Source: Alphaproteobacteria bacterium
Lineage (GTDB): Bacteria > Pseudomonadota > Alphaproteobacteria > UBA2966 > CAIVPW01
Assembly: GCA_947481575.1 (NCBI GenBank)
Contig: CANKGV010000003.1
Location: 115,934 to 179,933, forward strand
Direction of reading: 5' to 3'
DNA: 64,000 bases
Part shown: positions 54,420-58,410 of the stretch, piece after piece
Numbering within the stretch: the first letter of the stretch is position 1
How the letters are laid out: each line of letters starts with the position of its first letter
Notes under the pieces: generated by a model
What the model saw: only the letters and a program-made list of their open reading frames with translations
What the model was told of the DNA's origin: nothing
Database searches by the model: none
Position numbers and translations under genes: made by a program

Positions 54420-55718
54420 TTAGGCCCGCCCGAACACCCGCTTGAAGATCGTGTCGACGTGGCGCGTATGACGCGTCAGGTCGAACGCTGATTCCAGCGC
54501 GGCAGCCTTTACCACGCCTTTCACGTCCGGATCGGCCTCCACATACTCGCGGAAGCTGCCGCCGTCCTTCCACACCTTGGCGGCGCAGCGCTGGACGACG
54601 CGGTAGGCGTCTTCGCGGGCGACCCCTGCCTCGGTCAGCGTCAGGAGCACCGCGCCGGAGAACACCAGGCCGCCGAGCGATTCCAGGTTCGCCAGCATGC
54701 GGTCCGGATAGACCACCAGCTTGTCCATCATGCCGGTGAGACGGGCGAGGGCGAAATCCAAGGCGATCGTGGTGTCGGGGCCGATCACGCGCTCCACCGC
54801 GGAGTGCGAGATATCGCGCTCGTGCCACAGGGCGACGTTTTCCATGGCCGGGATCACGGCGCCGCGCACTAGGCGGGCAAGGCCGGTGAGATTCTCGGAC
54901 AAGATCGGGTTGCGCTTGTGGGGCATCGCCGATGAGCCCTTTTGGCCGGGCGAGAAAAACTCTTCGGCTTCGCGCACTTCCGTGCGCTGCAGGTGGCGAA
55001 TTTCGGTGGCGAGGCGCTCGATCGATCCGGCGATGACGCCGAGGGTGGCGAAGTACATCGCGTGCCGGTCGCGCGGGATCACCTGTGTCGAAACGGGCTC
55101 AATGGTGAGCCCCATGGCCTTGGCGACGTGGGCTTCGACGCGGGGATCGACGTGGGCAAAGGTGCCGACCGCACCGGAGATGGCGCATGTGGCGATGTCG
55201 GCGCGGGCGGCGACTAGGCGCTGTTTGGCGCGGGCGAACTCGGCGTAGGCGACTGCCATCTTGAGGCCGAACGTGGTCGGTTCGGCGTGGATGCCGTGGC
55301 TGCGGCCAATGCAGATGGTGTTCTTGTGTTCCTTGGCGCGGCGCTTCAGCACCTTGAGCAGGGCATCCAGATCCGCGAGCAGGATGTCGGAGGCACGGCT
55401 GAGTTGCACGGCGAGGCAGGTGTCCAGAACGTCGGACGAGGTCATGCCTTGGTGCACGAAGCGGGCGTCGGGGCCGACGTGTTCGGCGACGTTGGTGAGG
55501 AATGCGATGACGTCGTGCTTCACCTCGCGCTCGATGGCGTCGATGCGGTCGATCTCGAACGCGCCTCTTTCGCGCAGCGCCTTGGCGGCGGATTTGGGCA
55601 CGTGACCCAGCTTGGCCATCGCCTCGGTGGCGTGGATCTCGATTTCCAGCCAGATGCGGAAGCGCGACTGCGGCTCCCACAGCGCGGTCATTTCGGGGCG
55701 GGAATAGCGAGGAATCAT
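54420..55718 (-). CDS. purB: Adenylosuccinate lyase
   Basis: 432 aa starting MIPRYSRPEMTALWEPQSRF. Signature GSSAMPHKRNPILSENL (about residues 263-280) with the catalytic flexible loop, plus GMTSSDVLDT and GRSHGIHAEPTT. It acts twice in purine synthesis, on SAICAR and adenylosuccinate. A 14-codon upstream extension lacks support. Confidence 0.97.
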   Translation of the reverse strand: MIPRYSRPEMTALWEPQSRFRIWLEIEIHATEAMAKLGHVPKSAAKALRERGAFEIDRIDAIEREVKHDVIAFLTNVAEHVGPDARFVHQGMTSSDVLDTCLAVQLSRASDILLADLDALLKVLKRRAKEHKNTICIGRSHGIHAEPTTFGLKMAVAYAEFARAKQRLVAARADIATCAISGAVGTFAHVDPRVEAHVAKAMGLTIEPVSTQVIPRDRHAMYFATLGVIAGSIERLATEIRHLQRTEVREAEEFFSPGQKGSSAMPHKRNPILSENLTGLARLVRGAVIPAMENVALWHERDISHSAVERVIGPDTTIALDFALARLTGMMDKLVVYPDRMLANLESLGGLVFSGAVLLTLTEAGVAREDAYRVVQRCAAKVWKDGGSFREYVEADPDVKGVVKAAALESAFDLTRHTRHVDTIFKRVFGRA

Positions 55719-55784
55719 TGGGGTTTCGCCGGGTTGTGAACCGCTATGGTAGGCTAGCACGTAGCGTCGATCAGGACCGGTCCC

Positions 55785-56243
55785 ATGAGCACAAGCATCG
55801 GATGCCGCTGCGCGCTGGCCGTGTTTCTCACGGCGGCACCGCTGTTCGCAAGTGCGGCCGAGACCTACCAGTGCGTCGAGAACGACCGCACCGGGTTCCT
55901 GTGGAACGGCCAGAACATGGAACGCGGGCGCCTGCCGGGCGCCAACATGGTGCTGGCCGGCGAGTTCCCGCTAGAAGGCGGCACCCCGACCGAGGCTGTG
56001 CTGCAGATCGAAGGCATCCGCTCGCCGCTGGCGATGGGGTGTACGGTACCGTTCTTCGGCCAGAAGCCAGTGCTGTGCACGAGCGGCAGCCACACCCTGG
56101 TGCTGGACCGGGATTCGGGCCGGTTTACGCTGGCGCGGCAGTTCGGCTGGGTGTTCGAAGATCTGCACACCGGGGCTCCGAACGAGGACACGTTTACCGT
56201 CGGCTGGGGCATGTGCACCCGCGGGCCCGGCGCGGCCAAGTGA
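55785..56243 (+). CDS. Secreted four-cysteine protein, tandem paralog 1
   Basis: 152 aa with a signal peptide (MSTSIGCRCALAVFLTAAPLFASAA). The mature part has four cysteines at YQC, GC, LCTSGSH and MC, and the shared core DSGRFTLARQFGWVFEDL...NEDTFTVGWGMC. It aligns with the next two genes along its whole length, so these are three tandem copies. I do not recognise the family; two disulfides are likely. AGGA precedes the ATG. Confidence 0.8.
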   Translation: MSTSIGCRCALAVFLTAAPLFASAAETYQCVENDRTGFLWNGQNMERGRLPGANMVLAGEFPLEGGTPTEAVLQIEGIRSPLAMGCTVPFFGQKPVLCTSGSHTLVLDRDSGRFTLARQFGWVFEDLHTGAPNEDTFTVGWGMCTRGPGAAK

Positions 56244-56310
56244 CGCGCGAATCCGGCGGCAGTAGCGCAGTGATGCTATGATGCGCGCGGAACCGATCCG
56301 GAGCCTGACT

Positions 56311-56763
56311 GTGACCACACCCGTGCCCGTTCGTTGCGCGGTGGCCGTGCTGCTCGCGGCCGTTGTGACTACCGCGACCGCCCAGGAGCAGTGGGAGATC
56401 TACGTCTGCACCGAATCGGAAGAGGCCGGCTATCGCCTGCAGGGCGATACGCTGGCGCGCAACCGGTACGAGGGCGCGACCTTTACGTTTTCGCTGTCCG
56501 CCACGGATCCGGTTGGGACCTTGGAAGAGCACGGCACGGGCGGAATGCTCTACATGGATTGCCTGATCCCCTACGAGGACAAAGCGCCGACGACCATCTC
56601 GTGCACCGAGGGGGCGCACACGTTTGTCATGGACCTCGAATCGGGAAGGTTCGCCTTCAGCCGCCTGTTCGGCTACGTATTCCCTGACCCCATCACCGGC
56701 GGCCCGAATGGCGACGCTGTGACTGTGGGTGTCGGCCTGTGCAAGCCTAGCCAAGGAATCTGA
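56311..56763 (+). CDS. Secreted four-cysteine protein, tandem paralog 2
   Basis: 150 aa from the GTG at 56311, which has GGAG 7 bp upstream and gives the same length as its sisters; the double ATG at 56278/56281 would add a basic leader. Signal peptide PVRCAVAVLLAAVVTTATA, then YVC, MDC, SCTEGAH, the core ESGRFAFSRLFGYVFPDP, and NGDAVTVGVGLC. Function unknown. Confidence 0.78.
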   Translation: MTTPVPVRCAVAVLLAAVVTTATAQEQWEIYVCTESEEAGYRLQGDTLARNRYEGATFTFSLSATDPVGTLEEHGTGGMLYMDCLIPYEDKAPTTISCTEGAHTFVMDLESGRFAFSRLFGYVFPDPITGGPNGDAVTVGVGLCKPSQGI

Positions 56764-56766
56764 CGC

Positions 56767-57216
56767 GTGAAACGCACCCTCCCATGGACGGCCGCTGCAT
56801 TCGCGGCGATGACCAGCGTGACTGCGCCCGCTCTTGCCGCGGATGGCTGGCTGGAGTTCGGCTGCAATGAAATCGAAGAAACCGGCTACCAGATGGTGGA
56901 CGGCAAGATGGTGCGGCAGCTTTACGAGGGGACGCAGTTTCTGTTCGCGCTACGCGAAGCCGACATGACCGCGATCCTGCAGCTGGTGAACAACCAGCGG
57001 TTCTATATGGACTGCCGGATCGCGTTCCGGCTGGCGCCGGACGCGGTGGCGTGCACCGACGGCGCCCACGCGTTCGTCATCGAAAAGGTGTCGGGGCGGT
57101 TCACCTATACGCGCCACCTTGGCTGGGCGTACCCCGATGTCCGCGTGCCCACCAACGCCAATGGCGATCCGCTGACGGTCGGTTACGGATTCTGCATCGT
57201 AAAGGGCGGCGCCTAG
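56767..57216 (+). CDS. Secreted four-cysteine protein, tandem paralog 3
   Basis: 149 aa, GTG start 3 bp after paralog 2, so probably one transcript. Signal peptide MKRTLPWTAAAFAAMTSVTAPALAA. Cysteines at FGC, MDC, ACTDGAH and FC; core VSGRFTYTRHLGWAYPDV and NGDPLTVGYGFC. Function unknown; the family looks confined to small periplasmic proteins here. Confidence 0.8.
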   Translation: MKRTLPWTAAAFAAMTSVTAPALAADGWLEFGCNEIEETGYQMVDGKMVRQLYEGTQFLFALREADMTAILQLVNNQRFYMDCRIAFRLAPDAVACTDGAHAFVIEKVSGRFTYTRHLGWAYPDVRVPTNANGDPLTVGYGFCIVKGGA

Positions 57217-57235: not shown

Positions 57236-57709
57236 TTAGCGCAGGGCCTTAGGCTCCGGCGGGAACGTAGCGGCAGGGCGTTCGCGCTTCGGCCGCAATT
57301 CGCCTTTGGCGACGGTGACACCCATCTCGAGGCTGTCGGCGATACGGTGGGCGCGCTCCAGGAAGTGGGCGGCCGCAGCAGGGGGGCACCGTTCCCGCGC
57401 CGTGGCGGCGAACAGTTCCAGCCAGCGGTCGAACTCCGGCGTGTCGATCGGCAGCGGCAGATGGGCCGCCATCGGCTGGCCGTGGTAGCGGCCGGTGAGC
57501 AGCGCCACCGACGACCAAAACGCGCTGATCTTCGCGATGTGCGCCTCCCAGTCGCGGACATGCGCCTGGAAGATCGGCCCGATGAGCGGGTCGAGGCGGG
57601 CGCGGCCATAGAATGTGCGCACCAGGTCTTCGATCATCGCCTCGGTGATGCCGGTGCGAGCCGCGATCTCGGCAGTGATCGCCGCGCGCCGCTCTGCCTG
57701 TTCATCCAT
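57236..57709 (-). CDS. Group III truncated haemoglobin
   Basis: 157 aa with the group III pattern: IEDLVRTFYGRARLDPLIGPIF (distal Phe-Tyr pair) and LTGRYHGQPMAAHLPLPI, where the His after Tyr is the proximal haem ligand. The family binds oxygen or handles nitric oxide; the exact role varies. Two bases separate its ATG from the radC stop, so it follows radC in one transcript. Confidence 0.9.
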   Translation of the reverse strand: MDEQAERRAAITAEIAARTGITEAMIEDLVRTFYGRARLDPLIGPIFQAHVRDWEAHIAKISAFWSSVALLTGRYHGQPMAAHLPLPIDTPEFDRWLELFAATARERCPPAAAAHFLERAHRIADSLEMGVTVAKGELRPKRERPAATFPPEPKALR

Positions 57710-57711
57710 CG

Positions 57712-58410
57712 CTAGAGCAACCCTTGCGCGCGGAAGCTGACATGGCGCCCGCGGCCGATCACCAAGTGGTCATGCACGGTGATGCCAAGCTTCTGGGCGG
57801 CGTCGCGGATTTCCCGGGTCATGGTGATGTCGGCGGCCGATGGCGTAGGGTCGCCGCTCGGGTGGTTGTGCACCAGGATCATCGCGGAGGCGTTCCGCTC
57901 CAGGGCGAGGCTGAGCACCTCGCGCACGTAGACCGGAACATGGTCGACCGTACCCCGCGCGACTTCGTGGTCGTGGACGAGCGCATTCTTCTTGTCGAGC
58001 AGCAGCACGCGGAACTGTTCCTTGCCTTCGAAGCCCATGCGGCTGACGCAGTAGTCGAGAACCTGCTCCAGCGACGACAGGACGTCTTGCTTGCGGATTT
58101 GTCCGAACTTCAGACGGTGCGCTGCGGCGGCTACCGTCTTCAGCGCAGTCACCGCTCCGGGCGTAACGCCAGTGACCTTGCGGAGGCGGGCCGGGTCCGC
58201 GGAAACCACATCGGCGAATGTCTTGAATTCAGCGAGCAACGCCTTCGCGAGTGGCTTCGTGTCCTTTTGCGGGATGCCGAGGAAGAGGATCAGTTCCAGC
58301 AGTTCGTAGTCGGGCAGGGCGTCGGCGCCGCCCTCAAGGAAGCGCTGCTTGAGGCGCTGGCGGTGCCCGGTGTGGCCGGGCGGGCGAGGCGGTGGAGCCT
58401 CAGGCGGCAT
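57712..58410 (-). CDS. radC: RadC/JAB-domain protein
   Basis: 232 aa. N-terminal helix-hairpin-helix-like region (LPDYELLELILFL) and a JAMM metal site: E in VREVLSLALERNASAMILVHNHPSGDPTPSAADITMT. Despite the name, a role in DNA repair is not well supported for the family. Its start lies inside the 3' end of map by 11 bp. Confidence 0.94.
   Translation of the reverse strand: MPPEAPPPRPPGHTGHRQRLKQRFLEGGADALPDYELLELILFLGIPQKDTKPLAKALLAEFKTFADVVSADPARLRKVTGVTPGAVTALKTVAAAAHRLKFGQIRKQDVLSSLEQVLDYCVSRMGFEGKEQFRVLLLDKKNALVHDHEVARGTVDHVPVYVREVLSLALERNASAMILVHNHPSGDPTPSAADITMTREIRDAAQKLGITVHDHLVIGRGRHVSFRAQGLL

Follow-up and report, generated by a model that had tools for sequence, protein, structure and literature searches.

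A tandem array of fast-diverging four-cysteine proteins, predicted to be secreted beta-barrels, beside purB in an alphaproteobacterium

Introduction

The closest described systems are small barrels clamped by a disulfide bond. In PliC/MliC and in the Neisseria Adhesin Complex Protein (ACP), the barrel is closed by a disulfide from the first to the last strand, which are beta1 and beta8 in PliC/MliC (PMC5507604). For MliC/PliC the motif YxxxTKG has been defined, and ACP inhibits lysozyme without the MliC motifs (PMC5507604). Here we describe three tandem genes in a 64,000-nucleotide stretch of alphaproteobacterial DNA (the window), whose predicted products resemble PliC/MliC/ACP in the architecture of their models. 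Our best explanation, held with about even confidence, is that they form an uncatalogued, lineage-specific, fast-diverging tandem family of secreted, disulfide-clamped beta-barrels that are probably binders.

Results

The array consists of three genes on the forward strand, each encoding a putative exported four-cysteine protein. Copy 1 (positions 55785..56243 of the window, 152 residues) adjoins purB and starts with ATG, preceded by a Shine–Dalgarno-like AGGA (55773-55776, same strand). Copy 2 is listed at 56278..56763 (161 residues), but its true start is likelier to be GTG 56311, giving 150 residues, because GGAG is found 7 bases upstream of this codon (56300-56303) whereas no Shine–Dalgarno sequence precedes ATG 56278. 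Copy 3 (56767..57216, 149 residues) has a GTG start, with its Shine–Dalgarno AAGGA (56753-56757) located inside copy 2. By inspection, all three begin with a Sec-type signal peptide that closes on an A-x-A cleavage site, i.e. LFASA/AET in copy 1 (55785..55856), TTATA/QEQ in copy 2 given the GTG start (56311..56382) and APALA/ADG in copy 3 (56767..56838). The mature part of each copy contains exactly four cysteines. The initial annotation, which described three tandem paralogs with a signal peptide, about 150 residues and four cysteines, is thereby borne out (149-152 residues). It had also taken the spacing of the last two genes to show co-expression. The gap between the stop of copy 2 and the start of copy 3 is indeed 3 bp (56764-56766); co-expression of the two may be expected from it rather than being shown by it. 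A promoter scan of the array revealed nothing resembling a sigma-70 site, nor a convincing terminator.

The conserved core reported earlier, (S)GRF-x3-R-x-(F/L)G(W/Y)...TVG-x-G-x-C, is present letter for letter. Its first block reads SGRFTLARQFGW, SGRFAFSRLFGY and SGRFTYTRHLGW in the three copies, and its second TVGWGMC, TVGVGLC and TVGYGFC. The strong divergence noted outside this core was likewise found, with pairwise identities between the mature parts of 40, 38 and 34%. Matches from copy to copy in a whole-genome search (E 1.9e-26 and 2.8e-13) are not due to chance, and the genome (2.45 Mb, 98.7% complete) has no copies beyond these three. Neither of two profiles detected a further copy in the window, and a search of public genome contigs with copy 3 gave no match.

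The proteins had been called unrecognised, and a match to a characterised family, sought by profile and library scans, was not found. Scans of all family members (see below) against Pfam, NCBIfam, PHROGs and PADLOC provided nothing credible; a CpeT-like PHROG match of one member (E 0.096) was treated as chance. The profile gave chance matches only against PDB sequences, with no ACP chain, and no sequence relative was detected in 50,697 phage records, by plasmid tblastn or in IMG/VR scans. Judged by these searches, the family is uncatalogued, with no entry in any of the four collections scanned.

The array lies in a slot that varies among genera. Its divergent neighbour and synteny anchor is purB (adenylosuccinate lyase, 54420..55715, reverse strand, Pfam PF00206/PF10397). 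On the far side follow a convergent gene for a bacterial-like (truncated) globin (57236..57709, reverse strand, PF01152, E 6.3e-6) and radC (57712..58410, reverse strand, PF04002). No mobile gene was seen among the immediate neighbours, and no neighbour gene points to a ligand or partner. In a sister genus of the same taxonomic family, five species carry one copy each, next to purB and in antisense orientation; rpiA (by inspection) and radC follow beyond it, and the most distant species is without rpiA here. Most sister-genus species have rpiA in the place that the window gives to the globin gene, on the radC side of the array. Two more genera of the family lack the array gene, and their radC directly abuts purB; although one of the two genomes reaches just 79% completeness, its radC–purB junction is intact. 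By position, copy 1, the neighbour of purB, corresponds to the sister genus's single gene. Given this one-copy genus and the gene-less junction in the two other genera, a single gene was apparently gained at a fixed slot, or lost elsewhere, and then tripled in the window lineage. The sister-genus protein matches four MAG contigs in public records, some with titles that point to lakes. In one genome a second, 3'-truncated family gene copy (L022 / G415:C4:52457-52768) sits 18 kb from the intact one, to which its first 104 residues are 94% identical; this is a case of recent duplication and decay.

A maximum-likelihood tree joins the three window copies with moderate support (83/70). Among them, copies 2 and 3 are nearest to each other (99/95), and the copies of the sister genus form a group as well (95/93). 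Because the window copies group apart from those of the single-copy sister genus, the expansion appears to be lineage-specific, and the divergence among the copies appears to stem mostly from speed. Between the two genera, the array proteins are 28-37% identical; purB reaches 76-81%, map 69-72% and radC 55-61%. The initial annotation had offered old duplications or fast evolution; the tree grouping and the identities relative to purB favour the latter. Among four species of the sister genus, dN/dS of the mature part was 0.11-0.18 when close species were compared and 0.33-0.49 in pairs with the most distant one; purB, radC and map gave 0.15-0.32 in those pairs. This range (0.11-0.49) argues that the array genes are real and under purifying selection in the sister genus, yet fast. 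The ratio stayed below 1 throughout and so gives no sign of diversifying selection; the fast change could result from weak constraint.

The family extends beyond this taxonomic family. A profile of eight sequences gave one outside match among 385 class genomes (E 6.8e-9), in a genome of ~1.4 Mb with 32% GC at the locus. Good matches occur in 8 or 9 of the 162 genomes of the corresponding order, and one AT-rich genome has five copies, of which four are packed into about 2.3 kb. Conversely, a reverse profile built from the AT-rich sequences alone and run against the 1028 stop-to-stop ORFs of the window matched the three array ORFs and no others (E 4e-8, 4.5e-7 and 3.3e-6), and hhalign of the window side with the AT-rich side gave 97%. 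Four mature cysteines, C-x6/7-G[FY], a late F and the final GxC are invariant over 15 sequences from three lineages and, together with the signal peptide, define the family. Its spread is patchy, with members in 3 of the 276 genera sampled across the class. As the class and phylum samples held no other lineage with the family, it is, to the extent that profile searches can tell, rare or too diverged elsewhere. Three weak phylum matches were rejected, G547 because it lies in a longer, unrelated-looking frame, G651 and G665 because they cross stop codons. Genome size and composition suggest that the AT-rich hosts are planktonic.

Some further features of these AT-rich loci deserve mention. One island (L065:3148-9480, on G842:C5) holds ~13 small exported ORFs in a single orientation, four family members among them, and within it several unrelated mature domains share a near-identical signal peptide, MKILLTLFVLFFSS-x-VFA. 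Five small exported proteins from this island and a similar locus had no credible Pfam match. Exported proteins with only the early and the terminal cysteine are encoded at L069:6459-6833 (YCN...LGWCLDN) and L065:4244-4657 (YDC...YEGFCN). Both are possibly relatives of the family; the former matches the family profile weakly (E 5.9e-4).

AlphaFold2 models, resting on only seven sequences, were obtained for copy 2 (model 1, pLDDT 73) and mature copy 3 (model 2, pLDDT 82.6, pTM 0.77). Both depict a nine-strand all-beta meander, which in model 2 forms a closed antiparallel beta-barrel. Model 2 places Cys9 in the first strand (4-20) and Cys119 in the last (112-121), and by residue numbering Cys59 and Cys72 face each other across the 54-63/66-73 hairpin. 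In the predicted pairing Cys1–Cys4 closes the barrel and Cys2–Cys3 spans the hairpin. Periplasmic disulfides can form, since the genome encodes DsbB (E 1.4e-32). The closest solved structures are mostly closed beta-barrels with Z 8-9, which is near background for such models, and a closed barrel is a common fold that says nothing of function. The best structural match overall, and clearly so for both models, is the viral predicted structure A0A1B1IRE3 (BFVD; TM 0.80 on query, E 4.3e-8, 21% identity over 141 columns; E 4.2e-9 in the other structure search). This likeness is structural and far above that of other matches; A0A1B1IRE3 itself is unannotated, and a literature search for the accession found nothing. 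Going by the models, it is probably a true relative of the array family, a hint that viruses carry a member.

Discussion

Taken together, we propose that Sec delivers the array proteins into the periplasm or the medium, where the mature chain of ~125 residues would fold into a closed antiparallel barrel of 8-9 strands. The barrel would be clamped by two disulfides, one joining the first and last strands and one across the beta5-beta6 hairpin. With a conserved framework, and with loops and surface quick to change, it may act as a stable scaffold for binding a partner outside the cytoplasm, the copies being kept because binding came to cover different or changing partners. Binding of such a partner is, in our estimate, about evenly balanced. 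Among possible partners, lytic or degrading enzymes that make their way into the periplasm seem likeliest; they would be blocked in the manner of PliC or ACP. The initial annotation had raised an inhibitor, binding or envelope-stress set as possible roles. The predicted closed barrel fits a binder or an inhibitor, and since ACP inhibits lysozyme without the MliC motifs, an inhibitor-like working is conceivable for the array proteins as well; that they inhibit enzymes is nevertheless a guess, and an unlikely one.

A stricter reading would make them true lysozyme inhibitors of the MliC/PliC or ACP kind, using a loop to reach into the active site of muramidases, lysozyme among them, that come from grazers, predatory bacteria or phages. 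The first-to-last strand disulfide architecture is that of ACP and PliC/MliC (PMC5507604), and ACP provides a precedent for inhibition without MliC motifs. In the model, cysteines of the first and last strand are placed so as to close the barrel, as in MliC/PliC. ACP appears in the Foldseek list, and Brucella PliC (4mis/4mir) is among the best structural alignments of model 1 (Z 8.3/8.0, rmsd 4.1-4.3); it does not appear in the list of the better model 2. Against this, PF09864 did not match the window proteins or the 15 family members at E up to 10, and hhalign with five MliC domains from relatives gave a probability of 0.2%. SxSGAxY, the MliC loop 4 motif, is absent from the window proteins, and YxxxTKG is absent from all family members. 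The window proteins have a single SG motif, SGRF, which the model puts not in loop 4 but in the turn that links strands 77-82 and 87-92. Membership in MliC was rejected, as the profile and both motifs fail, and we regard this stricter reading as quite improbable.

Two other explanations dispense with a partner enzyme. The barrel might carry a small hydrophobic or chromophore-like ligand, as in lipocalins and fatty-acid-binding proteins, and its structural neighbours do include the putative lipid-binding protein 3h3i (Z 8.3) and the fluorogen-binding barrel 6ohh (Z 8.9); as these Z values are low and near background, and Pfam gave no calycin match, ligand carriage is very doubtful. Alternatively, the genes could be mobile or phage cargo, or encode near-neutral exported proteins, spread by transfer and without an important role. 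Such a history would suit the scattered occurrence (8 or 9 of 162 genomes of one order, 3 of 276 genera of the class sample), the by far best structural match being viral, and the AT-rich members sitting among many small exported ORFs. It is at odds with the stable position beside purB in five sister species, with purifying selection in the four compared, with the lack of a sequence relative in the phage or IMG/VR searches and with array neighbours among which no mobile gene was seen, and we consider it unlikely.

Exported binders remain our preferred reading. An extension of it, in which small-genome planktonic bacteria duplicate diversifying barrels in tandem to block the lytic enzymes of grazers, predators or phages (an "inhibitor locus"), is a long shot; if true, such a small locus would stand in organisms that otherwise shed genes. 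The family recurs in tandem in two unrelated small-genome alphaproteobacterial lineages, where extra copies cost, and should its loops bind enzymes from outside, it would open a way to study how these bacteria respond to attack. Otherwise, annotation pipelines still gain a compact, defined four-cysteine family.

Comparison with known barrels places the array proteins near several of them in architecture. The C-terminal barrel of NHBA (6cuj) is the best PDB Foldseek match of model 1 (E 3.6e-3, TM 0.39-0.41), and NHBA/TbpB-like barrels reach Z 7.1-7.5 with model 2; these barrels are domains of larger surface proteins, with no sequence relation to the array found. Like the modelled array proteins, MliC/PliC (PF09864, COG3895) are small antiparallel beta-barrels of the periplasm, with one cysteine in the first strand and one in the last. 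The array proteins differ in length (about 125 residues versus about 75-100), in the predicted second disulfide across the hairpin and in the conserved core. ACP resembles the models in its first-to-last strand cysteine barrel without MliC motifs; its match to model 1 is weak (6gq4, Foldseek E 0.38), and no sequence relation was found. As published, ACP has the one disulfide between first and last strand, whereas two are predicted for the array proteins.
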